Origin: Mesostigma viride
Taxonomy: Eukaryota > Streptophyta > Mesostigmatophyceae > Mesostigmatales > Mesostigmataceae
Assembly: GCA_009746045.1 (NCBI GenBank)
Contig: RPFO01000079.1
Location: 4,502,131-4,566,130, forward strand
Direction of reading: 5' to 3'
DNA: 64,000 nucleotides
Of this stretch, positions 23,107-61,817 are shown in pieces. The translations under genes and the position numbers were made by a program. Each line of letters opens with the position of its first letter. Positions within the stretch are counted from its first letter, which is position 1. The notes beneath the pieces are model-generated. The model saw only the letters and a program-made list of their open reading frames with translations, ran no database searches and had not been told where the DNA came from.

Positions 23107-23116
23107 ATATGGCGGT
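23107..23116. other. Empty site for the SINE-like insertion found in copy B
   Basis: ATATGGCGGT occurs once here. In copy B the same ten bases flank a 280-bp insertion on both sides (36,693-36,702 and 36,983-36,992). Confidence 0.85.
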
Positions 23117-23620: not shown

Positions 23621-23628
23621 CCCCGATC

Positions 23629-27949: not shown

Positions 27950-28150
27950 TGGTAGATTACCAACCAAGACCCGTCGCGGTAATTTACTCTGTCGGTAATG
28001 TACTACCAAAGATGTGCAGTCGTAACGTTACTCTTACTTACGGCTAGTAAAATTACTACCTATCATCCTACGTAGTAATGATTACGGCGTTGGATCTCAC
28101 GCCTCGGATCTAGGTAGTAAGATAAGACCTCGTAATTTACGCCTCGGATG
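27950..28150. repeat. Subterminal repeats of copy A (other end)
   Basis: Variants of GTAATTTAC and GTAGTAATG scattered over about 200 bp before the terminal inverted repeat. Confidence 0.7.
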
Positions 28151-28184
28151 CTTTTTACCACCCTCGGACGAAAAGTATAGTGCC

Positions 28185-31907: not shown

Positions 31908-32417
31908 TACACTATACTTTTCGTCCGAGGGTGGTAAAAAGCATCCGAGGAGTAAATTACGAGGTCTTATCTTACTACCTAGATCCGAGGCGTGAGATCC
32001 AACGCCGTAATCATTACTACGTAGGATGATAGGGTAGTAATTTTACTAGCCGTAAGTAAGAGTAACGTTACGACTGCACATCTTTGGTAGTACATTACCG
32101 ACAGAGTAAATTACCGCGACGGGTCTTGGTTGGTAATCTACCACCTGTAGATTAGGTGCCAGTGATCCGATGCTGTAAGATACGTTTCAGTAAGCTACTT
32201 CGGGGATCTTTGCCTGTACACGGCCAGATGGATAATTATATTGTAATGGAGAAGTGGGAGAACGTGCGTGTCTATTAGCAAATGCAGCGAAATATAAAAA
32301 TGTAGTTATCAGCCTTTTTCGCCTATTCAGCAGTTGTCGTTGTCGGCCGTTGTCATTAAGCGGCTATAGATTATGTGTGCTGGGGCCGGTGAAAAGACGC
32401 TAGCAAAGTTCGTCTGA

Positions 32418-34631: not shown

Positions 34632-34844
34632 ATGAAGAGCAAAGCCCGGTGGGGAGTACATGTAACGCATTACCACGAGAAGGGGTCCCCACACCGCATT
34701 TCTTCGCTCTCTGTTCCTATGCAGAACAAGAAGAGGTGGAAGACCAATGTCCCGGCTCACACGCCAGCCCATGTGGGTAAGCCCCCTCCCCCAAAGCGGA
34801 AGGGGCGCTTTGGGGAGAAGTGTAGTGAGGATTTTGTAGACTAG
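34632..34844 (+). CDS. Small basic frame MKSKARWGV (copy B)
   Basis: Identical to the copy A frame at 25,249-25,461. A short exon-like block ending EKEKAGKH lies upstream (34,314-34,440) after a GCTGCAG acceptor and could be part of the same transcript. Confidence 0.35.
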   Translation: MKSKARWGVHVTHYHEKGSPHRISSLSVPMQNKKRWKTNVPAHTPAHVGKPPPPKRKGRFGEKCSEDFVD

Positions 34845-35303
34845 ATAGCTTAGAGTTAGCTTATTTCGATGTCGCGGCTTGACCCACCTCTACCCATTCA
34901 GCAAGGAATATGCATGTGCTGCATGATCTCCCAACGGAGGCATGTTATAATTTTATTTGATTCTTTAATGTAGTGTCTTGGGGCATGATGCAGATGAGAT
35001 TTGTAACTTCCGTGTAATTATGTTTCTAAAGAGATTAGCATAGTACTCTAAACATGCCCATGCGCATGACACGCAAGTACTAACTTACTTACACCAGACC
35101 TGGCAATAAACAAGCATTGATGGGATGGACCCAGCGATACATAATGGGCGTGCATGCGTAAAAAATATACACTATGCATGGCCCAATGGGCATGCATTCA
35201 AATAATTACAAATGAAGGCCGCCATGAGAGCACTGAAGCTAAACCAGACCGGGCCACAATTAACCCTCCAGCACCAAAGTTCCACTGCATCATGTAAGAC
35301 AAG

Positions 35304-36179
35304 CCATCCATCCATCCATCCATCCATCCATCCATCCATCCATCCATCCATCCATCCATCCATCCATCCATCCATCCATCCATCCATCCATCCATCCATC
35401 CATCCATCCATCCATCCATCCATCCATCCATCCATCCATCCATCCATCCATCCATCCATCCATCCATCCATCCATCCATCCATCCATCCATCCATCCATC
35501 CATCCATCCATCCATCCATCCATCCATCCATCCATCCATCCATCCATCCATCCATCCATCCATCCATCCATCCATCCATCCATCCATCCATCCATCCATC
35601 CATCCATCCATCCATCCATCCATCCATCCATCCATCCATCCATCCATCCATCCATCCATCCATCCATCCATCCATCCATCCATCCATCCATCCATCCATC
35701 CATCCATCCATCCATCCATCCATCCATCCATCCATCCATCCATCCATCCATCCATCCATCCATCCATCCATCCATCCATCCATCCATCCATCCATCCATC
35801 CATCCATCCATCCATCCATCCATCCATCCATCCATCCATCCATCCATCCATCCATCCATCCATCCATCCATCCATCCATCCATCCATCCATCCATCCATC
35901 CATCCATCCATCCATCCATCCATCCATCCATCCATCCATCCATCCATCCATCCATCCATCCATCCATCCATCCATCCATCCATCCATCCATCCATCCATC
36001 CATCCATCCATCCATCCATCCATCCATCCATCCATCCATCCATCCATCCATCCATCCATCCATCCATCCATCCATCCATCCATCCATCCATCCATCCATC
36101 CATCCATCCATCCATCCATCCATCCATCCATCCATCCATCCATCCATCCATCCATCCATCCATCCATCCATCCATCCAT
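35304..36179. repeat. (CATC)n microsatellite
   Basis: About 876 bp, the mirror of the 1.16-kb tract in copy A. It is followed by the retroelement 3' end relic (36,180-36,530) in plus orientation. Confidence 0.97.
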
Positions 36180-36702
36180 TGATCGGGGTATAGTCCTAGT
36201 ACAGCCATGCTACGTCCTGGCTATGATGAGATTACTTGCCCACGCTCCTAGTGTTATGCCATGCTCACATGGGTCTTATTGCACCCACAGATTGCCGGAT
36301 CGTTAGCGTGTCCGTTTAGCTAGCGTTCCCGAATGCAGCTGTGGCATGCCTTAGGCATGAAGGAGACTGGGGGTCTCTGCCCTTTCTCCTGTTGTGCACA
36401 CACAGGGATTAAAAGCACTTCGGTGCTCCGTGACTCCCCAACAGGAGCACGTGTTTAATTAATTAATTAATTAATTAATTAATCGGGGTTAGCTAATGCT
36501 CCTTGACTCCCTAATGGGGGCATGAGTTTAATAAATGAATTAAGTAGTTAGTTAATTAATCAGGTTGATTCAGATGAGGTCTGTGCTGGTTCCTTGTGGA
36601 CTGGCCAGCCAGGGAGATATCTTCTTACATGGTCAGGCCCTTGCCGACCATGTAAGAACCTGTTAGGCGACGCAGTGGCCAACATTGGACATACCGCCAT
36701 AT

Positions 36703-36982
36703 TCTGATCAGACACTCCGCAAAGGTGAAAACCTTTGCGTTCAGTGCCAGGCCGCGGAAAACGCGGAAAACGCGATCTGCAAATGAATCCGACCGGAATC
36801 GAACTGGGGACCTCTCGCACCAATTTTGCTGACTATAGGACGGACGTCTCCGGTTACCACATGTGGCATCGCCAACTTACACCTACAGTCATCCGCAAAA
36901 GTTCTCCTGTCCGGGGAGTGATGCAAGCCTTTCGGATTTGGTACTAGATAAATCACTCGAGATCTGTGTGTAGGAGTACTAC
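36703..36982 (-). repeat. SINE-like insertion, copy 2, with 10-bp target duplication
   Basis: A 280-bp unit absent from copy A, flanked by ACCGCCATAT on both sides (36,693-36,702 and 36,983-36,992). On the minus strand it carries a box-B-like AGTTCGATTCC. It matches 3,427-3,704. Variable-length duplication and lack of terminal inverted repeats favour a retroposon. Confidence 0.75.
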
Positions 36983-38683
36983 ACCGCCATATGTTTGTCT
37001 CCGCGATATGATTTTAGCTGACATGCAGAGCACAGACACTGTTGGCGTCATCCGCTCAACCCCTCTTATTCATACATGGGACCTCGGATATGTAGGATTA
37101 GTAGCGTTGCCCAGGCGGACATTGTCAAAGACTACGACCCCCCAGTTGTGGGTCCTAGGAAATTTAACAAGCATGATTGTCTCCTTGTTGATAGGCATTA
37201 ATTCATCCTTGATGATAGGCATTGCTTGCGTGCAAGATTAGCTCGAGGCCCATATTTTAGACTACTAGCTGAGCTCTGGACATACATGTAGTTATTGACG
37301 TCTTGACGGATATTGACGTCTTGGGGGACTTCCACTATATCTTCTTTGGGGAATTCAGAGATCCCGGTCCCCCAACATGGACATGAGACTAATTAAAATC
37401 AATTAATCAATGTCATGAATAGAGCGCGTTCATGACGTTCAGTCATGAACAGAGCCCTAACCTTAAACACATAAGAAAACAATTATGGCGGACCATGTGA
37501 CCAATGTAAGAAGCTTAGCCCCCAAACATATTGTTGTCTCACGTAATGAATCACTTGCTGATCAACAAATCGATGGTTATCTCATAGGCACAATGTACCT
37601 CTGACCATCATTGCTGGCCCATGCATGCATGCACCAATGGCAGCCTACATGACACATACATCGCTTATTTGCCATGTAAAAAATGCGACAAAGTGTCCAT
37701 ATAGGTACTCATAGATTAGCACAAATTCCTTAGCACGATGTGGACAACTTTACTTAACGGTGAAAGCCTGTCTCGCCCTTATTGCCTTGAGGGTTCCCGG
37801 CGATAGGTCCTGTCTGTTGGTCGACATTTTTCTTTTGAAGCTGGCCATCGTCGGTAGGTATGAATGATCTCGATGCTAGCAATTACGATGATGATACCCG
37901 AGGTAGTCTATACCTAGGATCGAGAGCTTCTTCTTGTATGGCAATGCCGGCAGTTAACTATTACTCCGAATAAAGAGTTAAGAGGTTGGCCCTCGGCAGT
38001 CGGCATGGCGATCACGGAGCGATGACGGGGCGATGACGGGGCGATGACGGGGCGTTGACGCGCGTGATGAATAGGATCTGTTTGACAGGCGGCGGCTATT
38101 GGTAATATAGATTGTTGATTAAGAGAAGAGTTTAGATGTTGGCCCGTGGGCGATGACGGTGACGGCGTCACCGTCATCGCCCTCGACGGGCGTCATGAAT
38201 ACGACCTTTTTGATATGCGGCGGCTATTGGTAATATAGGTCGTTGACTACTACTCCGAATACAAATGTAAAGAGTTAAGAGGTTGGCCCTCGGCTGGCTC
38301 GGCATGGCGATCACGGGGCGATGACGGGGCGATGACGGGGCGTTGACGCGCGTGATGAATAGGATCTGTTTGATAGGCGGCGGCTATTGGTAATATAGAT
38401 TGTTGATTAAGAGAAGAGTTTAGATGTTGGCCCGTCGAGGGCGATGACGGTGACGACCGTCACCGTCATCGCCCTCGACGGGCCCGATGAAAAACCGATG
38501 TTTGATATGCGGCAGCTATTGGTAGTATAGGTCGTTGACTATCACTCCGAATAAACAGTTAACAGGTTAAGGCCCTCGGCCGGGCGATGACGGGGCGATG
38601 ACGGGGCGTTGACGCTCGTGATGAATAGGACCTGTTTAATAGGCGGCGGCTATCGCTAATATATAGGTCGGATATTTGTGTAG

Positions 38684-39030
38684 CACCCCCCTCCTTCCCA
38701 CGGCAGGTACGCAGCGACTCGCTGTTGTGCTGGCTGCAGTTGTGTACCACCTGTACGGTTTTTGTGTACCACCTCCCTCCTTCCCACGGCAGGTACGCAG
38801 CGACTCGCTGTTGTGCTGGCTGCAGTTGTGTACCACCTGTACGGTATTTGTGTACCACCCCCTCCTTCCCACGGCAGGTACGCAGCGACTCGCTGTTGTG
38901 CTGGCTGCAGTTGTGTACCACCTGTACGGTACTTGTGTACCACCCCCTCCTTCCCACGGCAGGTACGCAGCGCCCGGCTGTTGTCCTGGCTGCAGTTGTG
39001 TACCACCTGTACGGTATTTGTGTACCACCA
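38684..39030. repeat. Tandem repeat, about 85 bp x 4
   Basis: Counterpart of 20,927-21,363 with one unit fewer. Confidence 0.9.
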
Positions 39031-40032
39031 CCCTCCATGGCCCATGCAGCCCGGCCCGGCATCGTGCCGTCGCCGACCCGACAACGTTTTCTCGAACAAC
39101 ACGAATTTGAATTTTAGGGACTGGAGCGGCTGGCACGCTAGCGGCACGACCAACGGAACAAGAGAACCGAGAAACTGTGGCCGCCAGGAGGAGAAAGGTT
39201 TCAAGGCGCATGCGTTTGAGGCTAGCCAGAACCGAATGCGAGGTTTTACTTTATCAAACCGATGTATATCAATGTGGCCAGAATTCTTTTCCAGTTGCGG
39301 GGTCGTGTGTCGCCAATTTGTTGTTGGGCCGGGCACTTTAATCGTGATTGCAAGAAGTCAGTTCACGACGCCGTTAGCGTGGCATTTATGTACAGCAATT
39401 CATCGTTCGGCTTCTTTATCCTATCGGCAACTCCTCACGACGTGTGAGCGTGAGTCGGTTGTCGTGTGAATGGACACTTTCTGGGAAAGTAAGTCACTAG
39501 AGTGCCAATTTCACCGATCGCAAAACATTTACCCAGTTTGGGCAGATAGACCTGGCTAAATACGAGGGCGAGCGGAAGTAATTGTTGATGCATAGCCATC
39601 TGCTTCCTGCGCTTTGTAATTGTAATGAGTTGTTCGCAAATTGGCGTCTCTAGCGGTTACTCCTCTGTGCACAGCTGGCGACCAAGAAGACTTCATTGGC
39701 AGCCGGACTGCGGATGCGCGTCGTTGGAATATTAGCAACGTTAACATGTTTGCTGCGTTTTTTGTGAAGCTTGTCTAGCCGACTGCATTTGGGAGACTTG
39801 GCAAGGTTGCCTCCAATCGTTGAAGTCACAACCTGGGTGTCAATTCACGTTTACTAGCCACGGTCATAGTAACATTCTAATGGCATTTGTCCCAGTTTCA
39901 ACATGGGTTTTCACTCTGATCTGATGGAGTGAAGGGCCTAGCTCCGTGGTTTTGTGTCATTGTAGCAGTTTAGTCGCCTGCTAACGTAGTGAATCTTCCA
40001 TCCCACCTCTCCCACCCCCACCCGCACTTCTC

Positions 40033-40169
<137 letters not shown>

Positions 40170-40891
40170 TCCCACCCCCGCTCTCTTGTCCCTCCCGCAC
40201 CCCTCCTCTCTCTTTCCCTTTTCCTTGGCTGTTGAGAAGGACTGGGGTGAAAACTCCAGACCGTTGGTGGCTGCCTTCAAGCAGGAAGTTTCAAGGATCA
40301 ACAAGTTTTTGTGAGCTGTCTGATATGGTCACTGCTGCGACAAAGGTGAGTTATCTTGTTTTTCATGTAATTTTTTTGCTGTAGCTAGGTAAGCCGGCCA
40401 TTTTGTACTCCCCTTTCTTTTGCTCTCACGATTTATTCTTGTTGTGGTTTATATGGTCCCGTTAAGTGGCATGCATTATCATTATCCACATTAGTGTGAG
40501 AAACCATCCGCAGTGTTGTAGCTTGCATCTATAACAACAGTTTTTGCTGCCGCCGCCACTGCTATTACCAACATTAAGTCATTCTTGCTTTCTAAGCACT
40601 CTTTTTCCTCTTAGGCTGTTGGTTGGGATACCAGCCACCCTTGCACGCATAAATTCAAGCACCGGGTGCATGTGAAAACACAACCAAGGCAAGAATGTCC
40701 CCCTCTCGCAATATCCCACCCACGCAACGCACCCAATGCAGCAAGAATGGGACCACCTTGTTGCCATGAGCTCTAGCACCGTTGCCACCCCTAGCTTTCT
40801 ACTGTTCCCGTCCATCCTTATTTACACTGGCTGCTTTGCTTGCATTTCTGGCTCAGTGCCAGTTTGCACTTGCTAGCTTGCTAAGACAATA

Positions 40892-41191
40892 ATGCAGCTT
40901 GCAAACGGCAAGGGCAAGCACCCGGGTAAGAGCAAAGGCAACCGCACGAGCAAAGGAAAGGGAAACTGGAAGAGCAAGCACAAGGCCAAGGAAAGGACAA
41001 AGGCACTTGTGCTTGCCAAAAGGGCAGGCTCAAGGGAAATGACAAGGGCAAGGGCAGGGGCAGGCACAAGGGAAGCGGATAAGGGCAAGGGCAGGCGCAA
41101 GGGAAAGAGATTAGGACAAGTCAAGCACGAGGGAACGGACAAGGGCAAGGGCAGGCACAAGGGAAAAGATGAAGACAAGGGCAGGCACTAG
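40892..41191 (+). CDS. Lys/Gly-rich low-complexity frame (copy B)
   Basis: Same as 18,792-19,091. Its preservation in both copies only reflects how similar the copies are. Confidence 0.25.
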   Translation: MQLANGKGKHPGKSKGNRTSKGKGNWKSKHKAKERTKALVLAKRAGSREMTRARAGAGTREADKGKGRRKGKRLGQVKHEGTDKGKGRHKGKDEDKGRH

Positions 41192-41911
41192 GGAAAGGAT
41201 GAGGGCAACGGCAAACACTGGGGATCAAAGGATAGGGGCAAGGGCAGATGCTAGGGTAACAGTTAGGGCAAAGGCAGGCACAAGAGAAGAATAAGGGGCC
41301 GTGAAGTATAAGTGGAAATGCGGGTGGCGACATGGGGTTCGATCGGGCCTGCTGATGCAAATGCAGATTTCAACTGCAGTGACAAACACAAGCGTAGACA
41401 TAGGCAACGACAAATTCCTTGCATGCGTGCCTTGCTCTTCACCGGCTGGCTCGTTTGCTAGTTGTCTAACAGTTTCTACCGATAAACATCACTTGCCATT
41501 GTAAGGTCTGCCTTGCTGCCGTGCTAGTGGGTAGCTGGGTGATCGTGCTTGTTCCTTGTCAAGGGAGGGATGCATGTGGAGTAGGTGGGTGGGTGTGCTT
41601 GTTCCTTGCCAAGGAAGGGATGCACAAAGGTTAGATAGGTGCACGTGCTTGTTTCTTGTCAAGGGAGGGACGCACAAAGGGTAGGTGGGGGCACATGGTT
41701 GTGCCTCGTCAAGGGCGGGATGCACGAAGGGTAGGTGGGGGCATGTGGTTGGTCCTTGTCTTTTCACCGCCCAAGCGATGGCGATGTAGCATGCATTATA
41801 CATTTATTCGTGCATTAAAAATCACTTTCCTTACAAGCGGCCTTAGCCGACTCCATCTGCCGTTGCCATTTCTCCGTATTGCATTGTCCGGACACGGTTT
41901 TTGTGTCGCAG

Positions 41912-42149
41912 GTCTTCCCCCGTAAAGGCACAAGCTGCCTGCGCGCGGAATTATGTGCAGACACCTCGGTTTCCAACACGACGGCTTCCCGCACATATCG
42001 AGCTCTGGATGTACAACATCTTCCCCCGGCGCACTTGCTCCCGGATGGAGCTTCTGTGCGGTGCCGACATCCCCGGAGCTGTCCTAAGCACCGCATGGAA
42101 ACAGTATTTCAAGCCACGAAGAGAAGCCACGAATTTGATATTGACTTGA
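41912..42149 (+). CDS. Possible terminal exon of a transposon gene (copy B)
   Basis: After the acceptor TTTTTGTGTCGCAG one frame reads SSPVKAQAACARNYVQTP, then PTRRLPAHIELWMYNIFP and LLCGADIPGAVLSTAWKQY, and stops at 42,149. Its composition (aromatic and hydrophobic residues in a helical pattern) looks more protein-like than the surrounding repeats, and it is the last such block before the element's end. I do not recognise a family. A second overlapping frame is open too, so confidence is limited. Confidence 0.4.
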
Positions 42150-42418
42150 TATTGTCGTCAGAAGACTTGATATGCTATTTTCTGTGAAGGCGTTGGATTT
42201 TTGTGCATGACATGTAATCCTGCATTTAATAATGAAATTTTTTATGAAATAGGAACTCGTCTTGCATGAGCCTTGCTGCAAATGCCATTCATTTTTTTCC
42301 CCCGGGTAAATGGGTGTTAGGGGTTAGGTTGACCGAAATGATAAGTGAAATCAAAGTGAAATTCTGATAAGTGACATGCGTACTGCAATTCAGAACGACA
42401 TAGCGGCATGATTGTAGT

Positions 42419-48051: not shown

Positions 48052-48636
48052 TGAGTTAACGTAAAGGATTTACGTTAGATGGATAGAGATTGTTACGCTC
48101 TTTCCAACGGCACCTTGAACGCCTCATTTGGTTAAGGAACGTAAAAGTTATGACGTTTCCTAGGCTGTGCCGACAGTACCCGGCGCGCCACTGTGGGCGC
48201 GTACGGACACAGGATGTACAAGTGTCACTTTGATAGTCCGCAGGACGTTGACAGGACTTGTACAGGACTTGATGGTCAATTGATAGGTAGGCGCACTGTA
48301 GCGCGCCAGGACCTATGAGACAATTGATGCTGACTAGTGTACGGATAGGTCCACAGGACTAGCCGTATGGACAATTGATAGATCTGCGCGCCAAAGGCGT
48401 GCCAGAGTCTGTGTAATCAATTGATTGACAGTTCAGCTGTGACAGTGCAGCTGAATACTTGGACGCGTCCCTAGCAAGCTATATGAGTGACTTGGTCACA
48501 CCGGGACGCTAGTTCTTGCGTGCACGTTCTCTTGGCACTGCGACTCTGTCGCCTGTGCTGCGTGCAGTCTTGGAAGTGACGTGACTTACGTCTGTGTTTC
48601 CTGATTATTAATAAAGGCAACTTCCTGCAAGAACCA
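48052..48636 (+). repeat. 5' LTR
   Basis: It starts TGAGTTAACG (the 3' LTR has TGGAGTTAACG), has an AATAAA at about 48,610, and ends AAGAACCA. Several CAATTGAT-type motifs occur in the middle. Confidence 0.8.
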
Positions 48637-48652
48637 TGGCGGAATTCGTGGC
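48637..48652 (+). promoter_or_regulatory. Probable primer binding site
   Basis: TGGCGGAATTCGTGGC directly follows the LTR-terminal CA. TGG complements the CCA end of a tRNA. I cannot name the tRNA. Confidence 0.55.
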
Positions 48653-48694
48653 ATTCTTACCCTCACAACTCGTATTACACGCTCTGTCAAAAAG

Positions 48695-49405
48695 ATGCCA
48701 AATTCGGAAGAATTTCGGATTCCGGACGATGAGGAAATAGCCGCTCCGCCGGCTGGTTCTTCGTCAAGACCGACGGTGCCGTCGTGGCAGCAATTGCTCG
48801 ACGAAGTAACGGTCTCGCTCGACGAGCTTCATCGTCAGCAGCGTGCAGCTCACGCATTGCTCGGGGATAACCCCGAGGACCCCGATTTGCCAGCACTGGT
48901 GCCGGCAATCCGCAACCTGTTGGACCAGATTCGAAACATTTTATCGACATTTACGGTCCAGGTGCGGGGAGGTTTGCGGTCGGTGACCGAAGTCACGACT
49001 GCCATTGAGGAGTTGGACAACGTCCTCTCTTCACTCACCGGTTACCAGAGAAACCTGCAAAACTGGGCATCGCTACGCACGGGGGGCGCGCCGGCGGTGT
49101 CAACAAATTTGTTTCAAGATCTTGCGCTGTTATCGCTGCTCACTCGCGGCGTACGCAGTCGCGAGCGCCAGGTTTTAATTAACCTGGTGGCATTTCTCGC
49201 CTCTGTGCGAGAGTGGATCCCCGCGGGGTGGGAATTATTGACGATCTTTACACATCCTCTGCGCCTCGTCGCGCGTCGGCGCGTCGCAACTTACGCGGCG
49301 GGGAGCACGCCGGTTTTAATTCATACCGGTGCAGGTCCGGAGCTGGATATGGAGGATCGTGAGTTCGTATACACGTACTGCGACTTCAGGGGCCTTGACT
49401 ACTAG
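48695..49405 (+). CDS. Accessory ORF upstream of gag, unknown function
   Basis: A clean 236-codon frame starting MPNSEEFRIPDDEEIAAPP, 58 bp after the primer binding site. After a Pro/Ser-rich start, residues about 30-130 look helical (LLDEVTVSLDELHRQQRA, then IRNLLDQIRNILSTF and TTAIEELDNVLSSLTGYQ). A hydrophobic segment with FLASVREWIPAGWELL follows near residue 190. No known domain is recognised. It has no frameshift, while gag and pol do. Known Copia elements usually start with gag, so this may be an extra protein, or a separate N-terminal part of gag expressed from its own start. The ORF ends at 49,405 and gag begins at 49,576. Confidence 0.65.
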   Translation: MPNSEEFRIPDDEEIAAPPAGSSSRPTVPSWQQLLDEVTVSLDELHRQQRAAHALLGDNPEDPDLPALVPAIRNLLDQIRNILSTFTVQVRGGLRSVTEVTTAIEELDNVLSSLTGYQRNLQNWASLRTGGAPAVSTNLFQDLALLSLLTRGVRSRERQVLINLVAFLASVREWIPAGWELLTIFTHPLRLVARRRVATYAAGSTPVLIHTGAGPELDMEDREFVYTYCDFRGLDY

Positions 49406-49575
49406 TCGGCCTAATTTTCTTCTGCAGTACTCGTCGACATTTTTTTTGTCGAATTTTCAGCGGCAATTCGCGGGGCGGCAGCGACACCGGCGCAGGCGGC
49501 AGTGGCGACACAAAAATTTTGTACATATTTTCTGCTGCTTTGTTAAGGTGTTCTTTGAATAGCTGGTAGTGCAGG

Positions 49576-52400
49576 ATGGCTGAGGGACGCCGTAGCAAGG
49601 GTCCAGCCAGTGGGAATAATAATGGGGGTGCTGGTAGTGGAACCGCTCACGTAGATGACGTGGGGCTTACCGGAGAGATTACCAACCTTCCTCACAATAT
49701 TAATAATGCACAAGCTATTCATGGCTTTGATCTTACCACACAGGGTCTTTTAATTGTCAATCAGTTGCAGCCTGTAACCTCAGACTCCAAGCCTAAGCAG
49801 GCTGAAGAGTTTGTGGAGGGATTGGAAGGGTTCCCTAGCTTGTACGGTGGTACAAATTACTATCAAATCTGGATAGGCAGTAGCACTTTTGGCAAGTGTA
49901 CTGACCAGATTAACCCCTAAATGGTCTGGCTGCCGATTTTCCGCCTAAAACTGAGTTACAGCCGACACGTCGGCCCCTTCTCGGGGGACCAAATGCCGCG
50001 AAAACTATTGAGAATTAGGAAACGTTTAGCTGAGAAGATCGAAAGTTTATAATTTTCCTCACAGCATGGTACTAGGGTTCGCATACTTCTGACAAAGTTA
50101 TAGAGGTGTTCTGGCCGGTCAAAGTACAAGGGGTCAGGGTACTTTTTCACGTAGAACGTGCATTCCGGAAAACGACGACCTGGCCATGGCGGCTTGCGCC
50201 CACGCATGGCATTTACGTTTTCGTTCGAATTTTCTGACCAAACTCAGGAAATTGATTTTATACGTCCTAAAGATGATACAGGCCAATTTTTGGTTCGCGG
50301 GAATGCCATTTGATAGGTGTCGGCAGCGTTCTTGCTGGAAAAAACTGCGATCAGGCCGGACGATAGAAACGTTGACAGCAATAACTTTCCGGCGTATTTT
50401 AAAGGATATATCGGTTTCTTTGTACTTTTTATGATGATTTGTAGTCGTAAACGTGCAAGGGTGGCCAGAAATCGTCGAATCTAGCGACCATGCTGCACAA
50501 CTTTGGTGTGCCGAAATGCGCCATTTTGCGGCCACCGCCTGGGCCAAGGTAATGCCAGCCATGCCAGGTAAAGCTGAGTTATCGTTTTCCTATCGATGTT
50601 TGACGTTTATATATACGTTCTAGCTTGTGTAGCACATTCTTTTTGCATTATTCATGCTCTTTCTTGACCATGGCCTGGCCCCTTCCTAAAACACCATTCT
50701 TAGATGCTTCCCTCAGTCAGTTGACCTGCCATAGTGTGATGGTGATAAGTTTTAGAGGCTGTATGGGTTTGAATACCTCCATATATGTTTGTTATACATT
50801 TCCCACACACATATTGCATGAGTGTGAGGCAGTTGGCTGGTCTCTGTGGCATCATCAAGCATGTACCCGGTGAGTAGAAGCTTCCCATTGTCAGCATGTG
50901 CCACCAGGTGTGCTGGCCATCACCTGGCAAGCTATAGCAGCTTAGGCCTAGTTTATCCTTGCTAGGGCAAGCTGAAATAGGCTTAAAATCACTAGTTTGT
51001 TGGTGGCTGCCTCCTAGAATGCATGCCTTGCGTAGGGTATCCGTACCACGTTACCTACGTGCATGGACAAGGTGGCACCTGCACATAGGTGCCATGTAAG
51101 GGCAGTGTGATGATGCAGTTATGTTTCCCCATCATTGTGGAAGGGAAATGTATTGTGTGGCATGGTTGGGGGACATTTTTAGTAGGTATTAGTAGGTAGT
51201 ATGCCCACCCCTACCCCTTTGGTTGCTTTTTACCAACGGTACCCCTATGGGCTGTACTGGGTGTAACTGCTGGTATACCCACCCAAATGATGACCCCAAT
51301 GGCTCAAACTGTTCAGCAACTAATTGTTTATCATCCCTGAAGTGGTAGGTGCCTAGCTCTTACAACATAATTCAAAATGCACATTCTACCAAAAATGAAA
51401 ACGCTCGTCTTGACCCCCCTGACTTTGACGGCAGTTATACATGGCCTACCCTGCATATATGTAAGGTTGTGATATACCAACCCGAAGGGCAACTCATGGA
51501 CATGCTTGGCCCCCAAGGACAGCCATTGGATATGGGTGGGTTGGATGGCATCTGGTTTGCAAAATTGTGAAGTTACAGCCGATGCATCGGCAGTATTTCT
51601 GCCCATTTAGGGGTTAAGGACCTAACCAAAGAGTGCAAAAAGGCCAATAAAGCCTGGGCACTGTACGTGGCTGAGCTGAAGGAGCTGCTGGAAGACCAAC
51701 GAAAGAAGGTCGGCATCCATTGGCAGGACAAGTACCAAGGGTGGGAGGTTAAGGGGGACCTGATCCAGAACTTTCTCAACTATTGTAAGATGGTTGAGGA
51801 GGGCAGGGCTCACGGCTTTAATGTCGCTGATAACATAGCCCTAACCAACTGGCTCAAGGTTTCTGGGCTGGATAAGGCGACACGTGGCTCCTTAAAAGTC
51901 ATGTGTGCCCCACACTCTACCCTGAAGGCCTACAAGGTCATCATTAAACAAGCTCTCGAGGCAGAGGAGCTGTTTGAGGGTGGAGTGCCAGCAGTGAAGG
52001 CTACCCAGGCAGGCGGGCGTACCCAGGGTGGCTCCAAGACGTCTGAGGCTGACCGAAGCCAAGGAGGGCGTAGGGGCAACCATCACAAGCGCAAGGGAGA
52101 TCATTCACCTGATTCTGACATGGGAGGTCACACTCCAAGTCGGTGTTCAGGCGGGTGGGTGGTCAGCCCAAGCAGGGCAACGCGTCTGACAATGGGGGCA
52201 GTGGCCAGGGCAAGTCCAAGATACAATGCTACCTGTGCAAGGGGTGGGGGCACATCAAGAAGGAGTGTCCCAGCTTCAAGAAGTCCCAGGGCCAGGGCAG
52301 CAACAAGAATAACAACAACAACAACAAGAAGAACAACAACAAGTCCCAGGCAGGCCAGCCTTCAAAGGGCAGTCAGCAAGAAGACAACAAGGAGCAGTGA
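49576..52400 (+). pseudogene. Copia gag, split by a TTAA transposon and a frameshift
   Basis: The first part (49,576-49,911) begins MAEGRRSKGPASGNNNGG. The frame enters the TTAA element and stops at 49,920. It resumes at 51,614 with LTKECKKANKAWALYVAEL, and the two halves join in frame if one TTAA is counted once. The capsid-like region includes WQDKYQGWEVKGDLIQNF and NIALTNWLKVSGL. A frame change near 52,140 leads to the nucleocapsid zinc knuckle CYLCKGWGHIKKEC (C-x2-C-x4-H-x4-C) and an Asn/Lys-rich tail ending at 52,400. Gag would package the RNA in virus-like particles. As read the copy is broken twice. Confidence 0.8.
49914..51613 (+). mobile_element. TTAA-flanked (piggyBac-type) transposon, 1.70 kb, in gag
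   Basis: The inverted ends CCCCTAAATGG / CCATTTAGGGG are flanked by TTAA (49,910-49,913 and 51,614-51,617). The C-rich terminus directly after TTAA is typical of piggyBac. AGTTACAGCCGA repeats occur near both ends (about 49,953 and 51,573). The interior from about 50,110 to 51,210 is homologous to the 29.6-kb element, including the short MAFTF frame (50,208). No transposase is visible, so it is non-autonomous. Confidence 0.82.
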
Positions 52401-52541
52401 CTGTCTGAGGCAACCCCTACACACCTTAATTCACCCAAGGGGGAGGCCAGGTGCTCCAATGCAGATTTTATATCTGGGCAACAAGAGGGTGATCTCCAGG
52501 TTCAGTGTGGCCCCAGGTCACCTGGAGAGGTACAGGTTCCT

Positions 52542-54263
52542 ATGAAGACGTCCTTGACAGCTGGTGCAGCTGTAAGAATGTCTGACCCTATGCATCCTCG
52601 TGCTGGGCACGAGGGTGGACCTCTCATTTTGAGAGAAACCAATGTACAACCACAGAGGGGTGTGAAGGCCTCTGGTGGTATGCATGTGGTCCCTGCTGGC
52701 GGTCCAGGTGTTGGGCATGAGCAGGGTGACTCAGGCTCTGAGTCAGAACAGGATGGAAGTCAGCATGGTGATGCTGGACAACCTGACAGCACAGTCCTGA
52801 CTGTGCCAGGGACTGCTTCCTCTGTGTACCAGGAGTTGGGTGCCCGAATCCACAACATGTTTGGGCATGCCACTTCTCTGTCAAACAACTTTGCCTTCCG
52901 TATGGGCAGGGCACCCCTTCTTAAGGCGTGTCAGCAAGCTGCCTCACGGTGTAAGTGCCAGTTGTCCTCCAACAAGCCCAGGAAATCACATGCCAAAGCT
53001 CTACCTCAGAGCATTGGTGATCTGCAGTGTGATATCCAACACATCAGGGGCATGCAACTGTTGGTGTGCGTGGACAGGTACACGAAATACAAGGTGCTGG
53101 AGCATTTACCTTCTATGAAGAACAGGTACTTGCTGGCTGCCCTGCAGAATGTAAGAGCCAAGTTTCCTACCACAAGGATCCAGGTGGACATGCAGTTTCA
53201 GCATCTCAAGGGTGATCCTACCCTTCCTGAGTTGCTGGTTACACCTAGGGAGGCTCATGGGCAGCAGGGTGCTATCGAGAGGGCAATCCAGGAGGTCAAG
53301 AAATTGATCATCTCTGAAGACTGGGTACCCTTGTCTGCACCTGCACTTGTCAGGAGTGCATGGCTGAGGAACGTGGAGCAGCAGCTGAACAGCAGGGTTA
53401 ACTTCTACTATGATGGAGTTGCTGTCAGCCCAATGGGTCTATATCATGGCCTGTGCCCACCACATGTGCTGGAGGGCTGGAAACATGCTGCACATGTCAC
53501 CTTTGCCAAGCTGAGGGAGAAGGACCGGGGTTGGAAGATGCTGGAGCCACAAGTGGGTCAGAAGGTCCTAGCTTGGAAGGAACCTAGCCTTTATGGCAAA
53601 CGTGGTAGCTGGAGTCCTGGGGTGGTTACCCAGGTTGATGAAGCTAGCCACGCATGCTTGGTCAGCATGGAGGACGAACCAAAGCATGTACACCGGCTGA
53701 GTTGGTCATATGTCAAGCCTAACCTGATGAATGAGGGCAGTCAGGCACAAGGCTCACAGGATCTGCAGGATTTTCAGGTCCCAGGTGACATCACTGACGC
53801 AACGACCACATCTGTTGCAGGGGAATCTGTCAGCCCTGGCCAGGTTGCAGAGGTACTTGTTGAACAGGCTGCAAGGTCAACAGCTGGGGAGTCAACTGTC
53901 AAGCCCAAGGCACTAACCAAGCCCAGGGGGACAAGTTTGGCTGGATTGATTGGGGCTCTACAAAGGGCCAAGAAGCAGCCCAAGGTAGCCAAGCTCAGGT
54001 GGCATGGCAATCTGGGGCTGGACACTGCCTTAGAGGTAGACACTAATTCTCAGGTTTCCATCATTGGGACCAGGGCTGCAGCAGGGTACAGCATGTCTGA
54101 ACCCAGCTATCAGTTTGTGTCTGACTTCAGTGGCGGGGTACACGTGAAGGTACTGGGTGAGGTATTCATTCCTATCCTTGGACAGGACACTGCTTTTTGT
54201 GTCTTGGAGGGCTATCAAGGACCTGCTCTTCTGGGGCAGAATTTCCTATGCCAGGATGGGTAG
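52542..54263 (+). CDS. Copia pol part 1: integrase followed by protease-like domain
   Basis: A 573-codon frame. The integrase has a zinc-binding-like IHNMFGH...CKCQ region (about residues 100-145), then the catalytic triad: Asp in LQCDIQHIRGM, Asp in IQVDMQF, and Glu in QQGAIERAIQEV about 30 residues later. A C-terminal SH3-like VGQKVLAWKEPSLYGKRG segment follows. Residues about 500-570 look like a retropepsin: LEVDTNSQVSIIG (Asp-Thr-Asn where Asp-Thr-Gly is usual) and, near the end, GPALLGQNFL. The usual Copia order places protease before integrase; here it comes after. The frame ends at a GGG run, where a one-base change would continue into the RT frame. The protease may be inactive because of the Asn. 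Confidence 0.8.
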   Translation: MKTSLTAGAAVRMSDPMHPRAGHEGGPLILRETNVQPQRGVKASGGMHVVPAGGPGVGHEQGDSGSESEQDGSQHGDAGQPDSTVLTVPGTASSVYQELGARIHNMFGHATSLSNNFAFRMGRAPLLKACQQAASRCKCQLSSNKPRKSHAKALPQSIGDLQCDIQHIRGMQLLVCVDRYTKYKVLEHLPSMKNRYLLAALQNVRAKFPTTRIQVDMQFQHLKGDPTLPELLVTPREAHGQQGAIERAIQEVKKLIISEDWVPLSAPALVRSAWLRNVEQQLNSRVNFYYDGVAVSPMGLYHGLCPPHVLEGWKHAAHVTFAKLREKDRGWKMLEPQVGQKVLAWKEPSLYGKRGSWSPGVVTQVDEASHACLVSMEDEPKHVHRLSWSYVKPNLMNEGSQAQGSQDLQDFQVPGDITDATTTSVAGESVSPGQVAEVLVEQAARSTAGESTVKPKALTKPRGTSLAGLIGALQRAKKQPKVAKLRWHGNLGLDTALEVDTNSQVSIIGTRAAAGYSMSEPSYQFVSDFSGGVHVKVLGEVFIPILGQDTAFCVLEGYQGPALLGQNFLCQDG

Positions 54264-55305
54264 TGATCACGTCCTCTCTCCTGACTAAGGAAGGGGCTGG
54301 TCAGGTCCCACTGATTAATTTCAGGACCACTCACCTATCACGTGCAGTAACCAGGTCGGTTAAGCGTGTGCAAGTGTGCCAGGGGCAGGAGCCCTTGGTT
54401 GATGACCTCATACTGCCAGCTGCTAGTCATCCAAGCAGTTTGGGCATTGGTCCTCACTCACTTGCTGGACACAGCCCTATCAACTACCAAGGCCTGGTGA
54501 AGCTCATGTCCTCTCCCATTATGTGTCCCCAGGTCACACTGGGTCTGATTAAATCTGGGGAGGACTGGATCTCCAAGAAATGCGTGGAACCTGTCAATGA
54601 CCTGCCTCCTGCACGACGTCTACTCAAGCTCAAGTTTGTCATCAAGATGAAGGAGGTGGACGGGGTCAAGGTACCACATGTCAGGCCAGTGCTGAATGAG
54701 TTCAAGGGTACTGGTGAGTGCACTGCTGAGGAGTTGTATACCCCTGGCATGCTGCATGATACTTGGAGGCTGCTGCTGTGTGTATTTCTAGGCCTTCTCA
54801 ACAAGGGCTTGGACTATGGCTCAGTGGTGGTAGACTTCAAGAGGGCATTTCTGGAGGGGATGCAGATGTGGCACAGGAAAAGTGGGAGGGCAAGACGCCT
54901 TTCTATGTTAGGGTGCCTGCTGTATGGAAAAGGGACATCCACACGGAGTTCCTTAAAATCCTCAAGGGCCTGGAGGGCCTGAGGTCAAGTCCAATAATCT
55001 GGAGGGAGACTCTCAACCGTTTCCTGAAGGAGCATTGCAACTTGAAGGTCTCTCCTGTAGACCCCTGTCTGTTTCTGGGGCAATGGGAAGGCCTGCCAGT
55101 GTATGCTTCGCTGCACGGGGATGACCTACATCTGATAGCTCCCACGTCGTGGCTTAAGGAGCTGATCTCCATCATTAAGTCCAAGTTTCCTCTGGGTAGG
55201 GAGCAATGGCAGGTGGAGAATGAGCCTCTGCTGTTTGTGGGCATGGAGGCCACACTGGTGAAGAAGAAGGGGGGAGTGGCGTATGCTGCTGGTGGGGGGC
55301 AATGA
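54263..55305 (+). pseudogene. Copia pol part 2: reverse transcriptase (two frames)
   Basis: The first stretch (to about 54,870) reads WISKKCVEPVNDLPPARR, LKFVIKMKEVDG and then VVVDFKRAFLEG, the first catalytic Asp of a Copia-like RT. At the GGGG after LEG the frame changes to DADVAQEKWEGKTPFYV, GLEGLRSSPIIWRETL, VSPVDPCLFLGQ, and YASLHGDDLHLIA, where HGDD replaces the usual YVDD. PLLFVGMEA follows. The frame ends at 55,305 in a run of six G. All expected RT blocks are present in order, so the enzyme would be complete if the two G-run indels were base-call errors. Confidence 0.82.
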
Positions 55306-56023
55306 TTATCAAGAGACCCTCATTAGCAAGCTTCCTCCAACCATCACACAGGCACTGTGTCCCATGGTGAGGGGCATGGTTGCTTGGGTGGCAGGCATTT
55401 CCAGGCCAGACCTTATGGTCATAGCCAGGTTGCCTGATGACATGCTGGAGCTAGGGTCTGCCAAGGTGGCTGATCAGGTCAGGGCTTCATCTGGCATTCT
55501 GTTGTCTGCAGTGGATTTATCACAACCCATTTGCATGGAGCTGTATGTGGATAGCTCAATGGACAGCAGGCAGGTCTCCAAGGTCAGGGGCAGGGCTGCA
55601 GGGCTCTTTGTGCTCAGACAGGAAGGCCTGGGGAGTTTGGTGAGCTGGTTTAGTCGCCTGCACAAACGGGTGGCTGTCAGCAGTGATGTGGCAGAATGCA
55701 GGGCTATTTGTGAAGGCATTCACACAAGCCTTTATCTGAAGGAGTTGCTTCATCAGATGACTTCTAACACTCCTTGGCCACTTCAGGTTACCACTCTTCT
55801 AAAAACAGACTCCATGGGGATGGTGCAGTTTGTGCACAGGCAGATGGCCAGAAGTAGGGACTTGGATTATCTCCTTCTTAAGGAGTTGTCCTCCTTGGCC
55901 AATATTGAGCATATCCCTGGGGTTGACAATCCTGCTGATGCTTTGACCAAGCTAGTGCAGAAGGCAGCAGTGCAATACAAGGTTCTTCAGTCTCTGATGG
56001 ACCCATCTCAGCAAGCTGTCTAA
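55283..56023 (+). CDS. Copia pol part 3: RNase H
   Basis: A 246-codon frame with the Copia RNase H pattern: ISRPDLMVIARL, ELYVDSSMDSRQ (Asp), GRAAGLFVLRQEGLGSLVSW, VAVSSDVAECRAICEGI (Glu), LLKTDSMGMVQF (Asp), HIPGVDNPADALTK (Asp) and a stop at 56,023. The protein degrades RNA in the RNA-DNA hybrid during replication. It overlaps the RT frame by 23 bp because of the G-run frame change. Confidence 0.82.
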   Translation: MLLVGGNDYQETLISKLPPTITQALCPMVRGMVAWVAGISRPDLMVIARLPDDMLELGSAKVADQVRASSGILLSAVDLSQPICMELYVDSSMDSRQVSKVRGRAAGLFVLRQEGLGSLVSWFSRLHKRVAVSSDVAECRAICEGIHTSLYLKELLHQMTSNTPWPLQVTTLLKTDSMGMVQFVHRQMARSRDLDYLLLKELSSLANIEHIPGVDNPADALTKLVQKAAVQYKVLQSLMDPSQQAV

Positions 56024-56970
56024 GCTGGTGCCTGGTTATAGGGCATTGGAGAGCAGATTGTGTGGTAGTGTCAGCATTGTGACTGGCATAATACCTGTAT
56101 TTTAGTCTGTACTAAGGCTCATGGACCATGGTACACTCACTCTGATTTTAATCAGGATACAGCCAGGTTTTGGCTGGGGTTCATGCTGTTGACTACACAA
56201 GGTTGACAGGTCCATTACAGACCATGTATTCTATTTTAAAAGAAATGTATATTTGTACATACTTCTCACAATGGTCTGGGAACCTTTATTCTGGGGTTTA
56301 TAGGGCGGGGTTCGATTCCCTGGTATTATGTTTCTACAAGCTGGCCTGTTCAGGTGTTTGCCTGTTCAGACTTCCCTAGTTCCCCAGGGCAGGATTTAAT
56401 TGTTGCCTATGTGTTTCATTTTGTCATTTGTTTGCTGTGGCAGTTTACCATCTGGCAAGTAGACGGGCGCCGTAAGACGGGCGCCAATAGACCCCTGTTG
56501 AGAGAATGACAGGCAAACTATTGTAATACGCCTTACTTTGTCAAGTGGTATTTTAATTGTCATGGATTTATTGTACTTATATTGAATATGTACTGGGTTT
56601 TATGGGATTAGTATCTGGGATTAATGTAACTCACCGCCAGAAGGTCATTGTACTGGAGGCTCTACCGAGGTGATGGGATTAATTCCTGGAGAAGACCTCA
56701 TAGAATTAACCTGTATGTATTTAATTTTGTGTGCTTCTAATATCTGGTGGTACTCTGTAATGCCACTTCCATAGGTTTTTATCCATTTCTCATGGAATGG
56801 TTTTCCCTGTGGCAGATCTGTTTCTTTTCCAGTTCCTTAAAAGAAAGGGCTGGGGGAATGGCAATGGCCATTAAAGACATCTGTTCAAGCTTCAAGCTGG
56901 AGTGAAGGACATTTCAAGCTACTTCAAGGGTCCCTGGCAGGGGATGTGATCCCTAAAGAAAAGAAGGGAT
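56024..56970 (+). other. Retrotransposon 3' untranslated region
   Basis: No gene. AAAGAAAAGAAGGGATTG at about 56,954-56,971 is the probable polypurine tract. GGGTTCGATTCCC-like text at about 56,308-56,320 resembles a box B but has no tRNA fold that I could see. Confidence 0.6.
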
Positions 56971-57496
56971 TGGAGTTAACGTAAAGGATTTACGTTAGAT
57001 GGATAGAGATTGTTACGCTCTTTCCAACGGCACCTTGAACGCCTCATTTGGTTAAGGAACGTAAAAGTTATGACGTTTCCTAGGCTGTGCCGACAGTACC
57101 CGGCGCGCCACTGTGGGCGCGTACGGACACAGGATGTACAAGTGTCACTTTGATAGTCCGCAGGACGTTGACAGGACTTGTACAGGACTTGATGGTCAAT
57201 TGATAGGTAGGCGCACTGTAGCGCGCCAGGACCTATGAGACAATTGATGCTGACTAGTGTACGGATAGGTCCACAGGACTAGCCGTATGGACAATTGATA
57301 GATCTGCGCGCCAAAGGCGTGCCAGAGTCTGTGTAATCAATTGATTGACAGTTCAGCTGTGACAGTGCAGCTGAATACTTGGACGCGTCCCTAGCAAGCT
57401 ATATGAGTGACTTGGTCACACCGGGACGCTAGTTCTTGCGTGCACGTTCTCTTGGCACTGCGACTCTGTCGCCTGTGCTGCGTGCAGTCTTGGAAG
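56971..57496 (+). repeat. 3' LTR (right end truncated)
   Basis: Same sequence as 48,052-48,576 apart from TGG/TG at the start. It stops at CTTGGAAG, 60 bp short of the 5' LTR end. Confidence 0.85.
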
Positions 57497-58863: not shown

Positions 58864-61561
58864 TTATTGAAAATGAAATTTACCGGCCGAATGTACCGTT
58901 GGAGCGTGGAAGGGCATCCTTGGTCGATCGAAGATATCCGTAAATGTTAACGGTGCGGTCGATGTCCCTGGCGGCGCCTCAACATCGACCACCTCAGTCG
59001 GGCGCATCAATCCGGCAAACGCCGGCCCTCCACCTGAGACTTTCGGCGGACCCTCCACGTTACGAGCCTCCAATACCCTCTTCTGCAGTGGGGTGCTCGC
59101 AACAAAATCCGTGTCAGCCGACGGCTCCGGATCGTCATCCTCATTCAGCAGTATCGTGTTCGGGCATTGCTCCATCCCCGTCGAGCGGGGGGGCAAAGTC
59201 ATCACAACCGTCCTTCCTGACGACGGTACGGGATCGTCACCCAGACCCAAAGAAACCGAGGCGAGGGCGGGGGTCCCCTCAACCGGGGGTCCCCATGAAT
59301 CCTGACGAGGCCTCATTCCCATCTGTGGACACGACCGCCTCCCGTAAATCGGGAACGCCCGCCGGCGCTACCAGTAACAGGCCGCGAGCCTGCTTCCTGC
59401 TGGCGATCCCCTCCTCATCACAGATACGCCCGCCGGCGTTTCCAGTAACACGCTGCGAGCCTCCTTCCTGCTGGCGATCCCCCTCCTCATCACAGATACG
59501 CCCGCCGGCGTTTCCAGTAACAGGCCGCGAGCCTCCTTCCTGCTGGCGATCCCCCTCCTCATCACAGATACGCCCGCCGGCGTTTCCAGTAACAGGCCTC
59601 GAGCCTCCCTCCCGCTGGCGATCCCCCTCCTCGTCACAGATACGCCCGCCGGCGTTTCCAACGACAGGCCTCGAGTCTCCTTCACCAGCACGCTGGCGCT
59701 TACCTCCCCCCCTGTTGTCTTCATCCCCCCCCATTGTCTCATCACGCAAGCCTCCATCACCCCGACTGCGCTTTTTCCCTCCCCTTCCATCTCCTCCCCC
59801 GTCCCTCTCCCCCCTCCCCCCTCCTCCCATCTCCCCATCCCCATCCCCTTTCTCCCCCTCCGCCTGCCCCTCACCCATCCCGGGCGGGTGCCCCTCAGCA
59901 ATATCCTCCTCCTCGTCCTCCTCGTCCTCCTCGTCCTCCTCGTCCTCCTCGTCCTCCTCCTCCTCCTCATCCTCCTCCTCCTCATCCTCCTCCTTCTCAT
60001 CCTCATCCGCCTCCCCCTCTTCCCCCTTCTCCGAATCATCATCCTCATCAGACGAAGAATCGTCGTCGGAAAAGTATTTGAGGCCTTCCCACCCATCTTC
60101 AACAAGCCAATATTTGATAAGGCGGACCAGGCGCTTCCACCGGCGGATATGGGCGGGCTCCCCGAACACCAGCAGAACTCTGCAGGGTCCCCTAAAAAGG
60201 GCGTTGGTCATCTTGTCAACCACATCCCACACGACCGGGCTCAAATGCGAGGAGGGTTTGGGAATGTTGCTCTCCTCCGGAATGCAGTCTGCGTCCCACT
60301 TGCGCAGGTTCCTCCACTTCTCGTTGCTGTCAGCTGCCAGGTCCAGCACAGCAAACGCCTGGTCCTCCAGCGACCGAGGAATTTTGTAATTCCCCGCGCA
60401 CAACTCGTCCACCACCTTCGTCACCACCAGATCCTTTCTTTTTTCGTTTTCCTTCCATGTCATTGTCCTGTATGCGATCCAGTCGGATCCCATCCTCACC
60501 CCCTTCCAATCGCTGTAGGCTTCCAACCTTTCCTTCCACCCCTTCTTGGCCTTGGTAGTCCCCTCCTCCGCCGCCTCCTCGACCTCCTTCTCGACCTCCG
60601 CCGCCGCCTCCTGTGGCACACCCAGCAGATGTTTGGTCTTCACCCCCAAATCGTCATACAAATGACGGGGGTGGGAAGCGAGCAGCCCTCTCGGGAACTT
60701 CCAGTCCTTCTGGTCGACCACTTTCCTTTTAGCCGGCGGAAGGTCCCTCAGCGTGAGAATGATCGCCCTCATGGCCGTGACGACCACCCGCCAAAAGTCT
60801 CTGGTCAGGCGGCAGTCGGCGATGAACTTGTCGAGGTCCGTGGCGAAGGTGCCCTTCAGCTTCACGCCAAACACGTGCTCCCTCACCAATACGGGGTCGA
60901 AAGTCCCGTTTAGTTGTTTGCAAGCGGCCATCAGCTCGGGGTTCTCCAGGAACTTGATGTGGGCGAATTGCTTTGCCGCCTCTATCAAATTCTTGGCGAC
61001 TTCCATTATTTTTATCAGGTTGCTGGGAGGGGCCTCACAGGACATGATCGGCGCTTGGATCAGGCTGTCGAAGTACTGGAAACTCGCAAGTTCCCGATGC
61101 GCGGTGAAAATGGACAGTTCGTGCGCCTTGTCTTTAGGGCGCGTGTCAAGGAAGTCTTGCCGAGCCGCGATATCCTGTGCGATCGCCGGCTTGCCGTCGA
61201 CAGCGGGCTTCAAAGGGTCCTCACACCAGAACAGCCAGCGCTGCATGAAGTTCTTCTGGTCCGGCCCCCACTTGTCCGTCTCTTCAGCCCCTCCTGCCTT
61301 GTCGCCTGCGCCGTCCCCTTCGGCCTTGGCTTGCTCTCCTTTCTGCCAAAAGGGCTTCACAATCGCCCAGATCTTGCCGTACAGAGGAGTTGGGAGAGAC
61401 ACGCCCTTCCCTCTCTTGACGGGTCCATATGCCTGGTAGGCCCGGTGCACATCCCCCAGCGCTGAGCCCCACGTTGCCTTGGCTTGGGCTGTGTCCTCGG
61501 CGTTCATGGCGTTCCCGAGCTGCCTGACAACTTCGATCATCTTGCCGACTTGTTCGGTAAC
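58864..61561 (-). CDS. Large exon of unknown protein with acidic stretch and 24-residue repeats
   Basis: It starts after an acceptor GGGATGCAG with VTEQVGKMIEVVRQLGN, in phase with the previous exon. The first 500 residues look globular and helical (for example SLPTPLYGKIWAIVKPFW, NFMQRWLFWCEDPLKP, DFWRVVVTAMRAIILTL, WKFPRGLLASHP). They are followed by a long Glu/Asp run (59,895-60,065), a basic Gly/Arg region with GGKKRSRG, and about five repeats of 24 residues (GGRICDEEGDRQ core; 59,375-59,690). A frame change at a C/G run near 59,285-59,297 gives a C-terminal part ending at 58,864. No family is recognised. The layout suggests a nuclear protein with a disordered tail. Confidence 0.6.
59375..59690 (-). 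repeat. In-frame 72-bp tandem repeat, about 4-5 units
   Basis: Each unit encodes a peptide around GGRICDEEGDRQQEGG and contains GGAAACGCCGGCGGG on the sense strand. Between-unit differences are few, so the array is recent or homogenised. Confidence 0.88.
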
Positions 61562-61817
61562 CTGCATCCCCGTAGGGCAACAACGCGCAGAGACACATCG
61601 ACAGTCCTCCCAAATAAGCACAACTCAACTGAGAACAAGAATACGACTGACAGAAACGCCGGCGGTCGCATCTTGACCAAAATATGGCATGCTAAGGTGG
61701 AACATGAAAACCCCTTATAGAAACGCCGGCGGTCGCATCTTGACCGAACTAATGGCATACTGAAATTAACACAAGAAAACCACTTATAGAAACGCCGGCG
61801 GTCGCAACCTGGCTTAC
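61562..61817 (-). repeat. Intron with tandem repeats (about 70 bp x 3)
   Basis: The motif GAAACGCCGGCGGTCGCA occurs three times (about 61,653, 61,720 and 61,791 on the plus strand). The last copy abuts the GTAAGC donor. The same core is in the 63.0-63.4 kb intron. Confidence 0.75.

Follow-up and report, generated by a model that had tools for sequence, protein, structure and literature searches.

Superfamilies of long terminal repeat (LTR) retrotransposons are defined partly through the order of the domains in Pol: Ty1/Copia elements read gag, protease, integrase, reverse transcriptase (RT) and RNase H, and in Ty3/Gypsy elements and retroviruses the integrase follows RNase H. The Gmr1 group consists of Ty3/Gypsy elements with a Copia-like integrase order (Llorens 2009, PMC2774666). 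Here we examine an element of Mesostigma viride (Streptophyta) at positions 48052..57496 of a 64-kb stretch of contig RPFO01000079.1 (the window), together with its relatives in the 440-Mb assembly (2243 contigs), in which the integrase is followed by a retropepsin-like domain (hereafter PR), RT and RNase H. The assembly carries rbcL, and a 160-amino-acid piece of it resembles RuBisCO large chains of the plant and green type far more closely than those of the red type, in line with a green-lineage host. The initial annotation had read this order, starting with gag, from the single copy in the window; matches to zf-CCHC, rve and RVT_2 and the existence of intact copies show that it is real. Both the order and an odd triad in PR (Asn or Gln at the position of the usual Gly) genuinely recur throughout a lineage that has about two thousand motif sites in the genome. 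Judging from sequence comparison, we consider this to be probably a distinct LTR-retrotransposon lineage with a Copia-type RT–RNase H, the Pol order integrase–PR–RT–RNase H and a PR domain of retropepsin type.

A constant Pol order in three families

The copy in the window is a decayed member of a multi-copy family of LTR retrotransposons (family A): its frames are broken, and intact copies are present elsewhere in the genome. When the window integrase–PR frame was used as the query and the best 76 of 6812 candidates were scored, all 76 rounded to 100% identity, 51 of them (the window copy included) reached the top protein score and five held open frames of at least 1207 amino acids. Pol is intact in the copies L040, L041 and L042 as a single frame of 1207–1208 amino acids that encodes integrase, PR, RT and RNase H. 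Of five motifs (integrase E, PR, RT B, HGDD and RNase H), three or more are present at 54 of the 69 collected loci, and in every one of the 33 that hold the integrase-E, PR and RT-B motifs the integrase precedes PR and PR precedes RT (26 full, five lacking the RNase H motif, and two, L039 and L064, to which a neighbouring element contributes an additional motif), so that the Ty1/Copia order was found at none of them; most of these 33 loci belong to family A, and the integrase side of families B and C rests on the L063–L065 region. A further 20 of the 54 have PR before RT in a stretch from which the integrase-E motif is absent, one has the RT and RNase H motifs only, and PR before integrase occurs in 0 of the 54. 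The constancy across copies that the initial annotation had proposed to look for is thus borne out. A canonical Copia family (L069 and L006), which served as the control within this genome, reads in the textbook order: a CCHC-like knuckle (by eye), Pol_BBD protease, gag_pre-integrs, rve, SH3_retrovirus and RVT_2.

Relatives more distant than family A share the arrangement. A search for the motif DFKRAFL, with a codon choice that excludes family A, returned 726 places (reversed control, 0), and all 20 loci sampled from these encode relatives by tblastn, most pieces being approximately 42–70% identical to A and one locus (L045) 38% over its main piece. This family B comprises two subfamilies, B1 (L063) and B2 (L064), the longest matches of which to A are 52.5–52.9% identical. 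Family C, in which a single open frame spans the gag knuckle and the integrase HHCC and which goes on to a PR with DTQ and then an RT with HGDD, is 38% identical to A over RT–RNase H in tblastn and 40% in a separate alignment; among the best 74 of 7851 candidates scored with a C query there are at least two subfamilies (approximately 97% and 84%), and one copy has a 2110-amino-acid open frame. HGDD and the Pol order are common to A, B and C, in keeping with the earlier suggestion of a distinct lineage. Beyond this genome, no relatives were confirmed in viral, bacterial and archaeal contig collections, a result that the host range of those collections makes weakly informative.

Two of the copies have features of their own. 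In L063 the integrase core is deleted and Pol is otherwise open (1059 amino acids), possibly a trans-mobilised deletion form, and the family-B element at L064:834-9312 lies within the integrase of a family-C element.

The triad residue and selection on the PR domain

Weighing against a working protease is the triad itself: the Gly of the D-[ST]-G signature of retropepsins is missing in all families seen, being replaced by Asn in A and B (DTN) and by Gln in C (DTQ). Among 34 family-A loci, all 34 have DTN in the PR segment and 32 have the HGDD string, which makes both of these, already remarked on in the window copy, characters of the lineage and not products of decay. Genome-wide, the pattern VDTN-S-QVS (the serine codons of which also admit a few other residues) has 1258 sites and VDTQAQVS has 847, with 0 in the reversed controls; of versions with Gly, the two patterns searched (VDTG followed by A/G/S/C/W and QVS, and DTG-S-QVSII) have 0 sites each. 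Among the matches listed, Asn and Gln are each written with both of their codons, and the DTQ motif has six or more spellings. Between B1 and B2 the PR domain has a nonsynonymous divergence (dN) of 0.112 and a synonymous divergence (dS) of 0.67 (dN/dS approximately 0.17), and between C1 and C2 the values are 0.098 and 0.893 (approximately 0.11), compared with a dN/dS of 0.11 for RT–RNase H between B1 and B2; these estimates come from one copy each and 100 codons, and the comparisons between A, B and C, being saturated or nearly so, were left unused. Because synonymous changes have accumulated while the residue was retained, and because dN/dS is low, the data suggest that the triad Asn or Gln is kept by selection. 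The canonical Copia protease of this genome (L069:363-1100) reads LDSAAS, and the Gly is therefore missing there too.

We lean slightly towards catalytic activity of the domain with Asn or Gln standing where Gly is usual. The strongest competing explanation, which we hold to be possible but the less probable, is a retropepsin-fold pseudoenzyme in which Asp-Thr and the fold persist to hold dimers together or to form a hinge from integrase to RT, with processing absent or performed by another protease. The substituted Gly, and the lack of a Gly version in the patterns tried, are what such a domain would lead one to expect; however, all five sequences compared, each from a different subfamily, keep V-D-T, the Gly-containing flap-like VSDFSG and L-G unchanged, the Gly is likewise absent from a canonical Copia family of this genome, and the selection, about as strong as in RT, suits an active site no less than a scaffold.

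Identity of the retropepsin-like domain

An alignment of five PR sequences (A, B1, B2, C1 and C2) has 36 invariant columns, Q-V-S among them in addition to the three motifs just named. Pfam matched C2 (Peptidase_A2_2, E = 0.0014; gag-asp_proteas, 0.0041; Asp_protease_2, 0.047), C1 (gag-asp_proteas, 0.0079; Peptidase_A2_2, 0.24) and B2 (gag-asp_proteas, 0.035), and all six matches are to aspartic-protease models and all below the curated cut-offs; a longer C piece drew three unrelated weak models besides. Against PDB, 19 of the 20 matches of the five-sequence profile are retropepsins (the other is apisimin), the best at E = 0.0099, and those to ASPRV1 (E = 0.41–0.5) span positions 3 to 88-89. 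With the PR of A as the only query, 12 of 13 matches are to retroviral protease (best 0.017), as are eight of eight for a shorter piece (best 0.14).

Several results count against the retropepsin assignment. Pfam gives nothing for the PR of A (the window segment included) or of B1. The alignments to human immunodeficiency virus (HIV) protease cover the second half of the domain only and not the D-T end, and PDB is rich in entries of this type. PDB searches returned no match for C2 alone and unrelated proteins only for the whole Pol of A; the reversed A sequence, used as a control, drew four unrelated matches with a best E of 0.059, which places the best single-sequence value of 0.017 little above noise. 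The AlphaFold single-sequence model of the domain is unusable (mean predicted local distance difference test score (pLDDT), 35.7). The case for a retropepsin is consistent but weak, and rests on agreement among models and not on any single score. That some other small beta domain merely resembles retropepsins is an improbable reading: scores below the curated cut-offs and the unusable predicted structure would be in its favour, yet the D-T position falls within the alignments to three Pfam models and to ASPRV1, and the half from the flap to L-G within those to HIV protease.

The initial annotation had also suggested a relocated Copia protease, and in that form the suggestion finds no support. 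None of the five PR sequences matches Pol_BBD, the model that the canonical Copia protease of the genome matches at E = 5.7e-15, and hhalign gives a probability of 0.5% between the two; by profile, the PR domain resembles a different type of protease placed directly before RT more than a moved Copia protease. Acquisition from the gag-asp/retroviral protease type, or shared retention with it, is the probable origin.

It is very improbable that the element is an ordinary Copia member whose own protease has diverged in its standard place ahead of the integrase, the later domain being a duplicate. A DSG string does occur in the gag–integrase linker of A and B1; however, these strings lie at unmatched places in low-complexity linkers, and Pfam has no match in the linker of A (52401-52802), where the initial annotation had likewise seen no protease, nor in the broken B2 piece or the C piece, the B1 linker having been outside the scan. 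That a single decayed, chimeric or misassembled copy gave rise to the order and the DTN, as the broken frames, nested insertion and truncated 3' LTR of the window copy might suggest, is ruled out for practical purposes by the intact Pol frames, the diverged sister families with the same order and the many scored copies at the top protein score.

Reverse transcriptase, RNase H and integrase

By profile and pairwise comparison, RT–RNase H is Copia-type. RVT_2 matches the window piece (E = 7e-4), the intact Pol of A (E = 4.2e-6; 27 bits, under the cut-off of 31.6), B2 (E = 8.6e-5, under the cut-off) and C (34.7 bits, E = 1.8e-8, over the cut-off), and RVT_1, the model of the Ty3/Gypsy-type RT, has no match in the A, B2 or C pieces. 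In blastp, residues 735-1189 of the Pol of A, which contain RT and RNase H, align to canonical Copia with 24% identity (E = 2e-14); the integrase of A gave no alignment in the same comparison. The H of HGDD is not special, since the canonical Copia family here reads HVDD.

The integrase is upstream of RT, and the element therefore lacks the Ty3/Gypsy placement after RNase H. The HHCC-like, DxQF and E motifs of the integrase are conserved in A, B and C, and its first D in A and B; the spacing from the second D to E is under 35 (counted by eye), 35 being usual in integrases. Profile support is weak, with rve at E = 0.0045 (window fragment) and 0.039 (intact Pol) and rve_3 at 0.18 (C piece). Other comparisons were likewise weak: phmmer with the integrase of A ranked designed proteins at the top, with integrases no better than E = 0.94 and 1.2, a three-family profile matched one unrelated PDB protein (E = 0.23), and the structural model has a pLDDT of 36. 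A GPY/F-like segment of the integrase tail, read by eye, is a candidate for the GPY/F module, and strands in this otherwise poor model have a pLDDT of approximately 64–72.

The gag–pol junction and a proposed mode of expression

The end of gag is in frame with Pol, across the gag TGA, in four of four long A copies (L039, L040, L041 and L042); farther upstream, L040 has a disrupted gag, and L041 and L042 lack the 5' part of gag or have it broken. The stop and the codon after it read TGA CTG at 33 of 33 A loci with the segment (34 examined), with no alternative form, and TGA CTT is in frame in the B1 copy; the aligned TGA CTA of the B2 copy lies in a broken frame and was left out of the count. 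A UGA stop with CU after it is known to be leaky.

In the model that we propose, Gag would be made from the first frame, and in families A and B the leaky UGA-C stop would let a fraction of ribosomes into Pol, whereas in family C the gag knuckle and the integrase share a frame. The retropepsin-type domain between integrase and RT may dimerise in the particle and cut the polyprotein, releasing integrase upstream and RT–RNase H downstream, and the integrase would insert a cDNA with AGTT...AACT ends, giving a 5-bp duplication.

Structure of the element and its surroundings

Identical direct repeats of 524 bp (48053-48576 and 56973-57496) bound the element. In L040 and L041 the LTR is 617 bp with the ends 5'-AGTT...AACT-3', flanked by the 5-bp target duplications GATCC and CAACG, and from these ends and duplications follow the LTR coordinates in Table 1 and the truncation of the 3' LTR at 57496. 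The B2 copy has the LTR ends AGTTAG...CTAACT and the target duplication ATGTG; the B1 copy has the LTR start AGTTAG, the 3' end CAAAT(C) and CCGTT on both sides. The TG...CA ends of Ty1/Copia are found neither in L040 and L041 nor in the B2 copy. A search for self-priming of reverse transcription by the LTR gave no match of at least 8 bases in A and B1 and one 8-base match in B2. Open reading frame 0 (ORF0) has a counterpart ahead of gag in both family-B copies, with weak similarity (blastp E = 0.01), and nothing better than E = 0.11 in a Pfam scan.

Table 1 Features of the element in the window
Feature	Position	Strand	Basis
5' LTR, 617 bp, AGTT...AACT	48054..48670	+	ends from L040/L041 target duplications; 524 bp identical to 3' LTR
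ORF0, 236 aa, between LTR and gag	48695..49405	+	open in L039 and L040; broken in L041
gag, first part	49576..49909	+	ORF; uninterrupted continuation in L039
Nested TTAA-flanked insertion, foreign to the element	49910..51617	.	15-bp inverted ends; empty TTAA site in 26/34 A loci
gag, second part	51618..52397	+	CCHC zinc knuckle ~52224-52274, zf-CCHC E 4.2e-4; frame broken in window copy
In-frame UGA between gag and pol (UGA CUG)	52398..52400	+	context conserved among A loci
Putative integrase: HHCC-like, D/D/E, C-terminal SH3-like (GPY/F-like) segment	52818..53730	+	rve E 0.0045
Retropepsin-like domain VDTNSQVSIIG...VSDFSG...LLGQNFL	53997..54330	+	Asn codon 54045-54047; Pfam matches of relatives and five-sequence profile
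Reverse transcriptase, Copia type, HGDD	54610..55260	+	RVT_2 E 4.2e-6 on intact copy; blastp to canonical Copia
RNase H	55520..56023	+	same blastp alignment as RT; VDSSMD motif
Polypurine tract AAAGAAAAGAAGGGA, ahead of 3' LTR	56955..56969	+	read directly
3' LTR, truncated, 523 of 617 bp	56974..57496	+	direct repeat and LTR ends of relatives

The insertion that splits gag in the window copy is a 1.7-kb non-autonomous sequence with TTAA at both ends and the inverted ends TTAACCCCTAAATGG, presumably piggyBac-like given its target site. The empty site was scored by strict match, the eight A loci not counted either lacking coverage of it or failing that match, and a relative of the insertion (69% identical) lies at 29814-30884. 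Elsewhere in the window there is a large inverted duplication in several blocks, approximately 99-99.9% identical (17565-28182 and 31910-42418), and long near-perfect tetranucleotide arrays of up to 1155 bp (5966-6375, 6868-7901, 23630-24784 and 35304-36179). A minus-strand frame of 781 amino acids with a 72-bp tandem array occupies 59279-61624, with more minus-strand frames to 63136, and L042 carries a similar-looking sequence; frames at 3570-4441 resemble, by eye, a non-LTR reverse transcriptase (FVDYTKAFD).

Comparison with known systems

With Ty1/Copia elements (Pseudoviridae) the lineage shares an RVT_2-type RT, a Copia-like RNase H, an integrase upstream of RT and 5-bp target duplications, which are typical of that superfamily; it differs in that Ty1/Copia has its own Pol_BBD protease before the integrase, whereas here a protease of a different type would follow the integrase and the LTR ends are AGTT...AACT. 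With Ty3/Gypsy elements and retroviruses it shares a protease, here a putative one, directly before RT, a gag-asp/retroviral-like character of that protease and possibly an SH3/GPY-like integrase tail (by eye); in those elements, however, the integrase comes after RNase H, whereas here it lies upstream of the protease and the RT is of Copia type. Gmr1 is a precedent for an altered integrase position and differs by its Gypsy RT; its protease, according to Goodwin and Poulter, reportedly comes before the integrase. Tca2 of Candida albicans likewise has a UGA stop between gag and pol, and the accessible portion of its description mentions no altered Pol order (PMC2194720). Troyka is another lineage of retroelements distinguished in part by uncommon LTR ends, but has a Gypsy/BEL-like order, CG...CG ends and 3-bp duplications (PMC12440569).

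Literature searches, in which Repbase and most subscription papers were not covered, found no published equivalent of the integrase–PR–RT order. In a survey of plants, elements with domains in an unexpected order were, according to that article, removed in every case as likely mispredictions (PMC6317226), and such lineages may consequently have been filtered out elsewhere. We see an even chance that this is a superfamily-level lineage of a green-lineage host with a third Pol order, in which a retropepsin works, or has been maintained, with its triad Gly replaced by Asn or Gln; a survey that applies such a filter would have discarded it. If true, a third arrangement alongside a Copia RT would mean that domain order is less fixed than has been assumed, would offer a test case for the cutting of a polyprotein with the protease in its middle, and would raise the question of how strictly retropepsins require D-[ST]-G.

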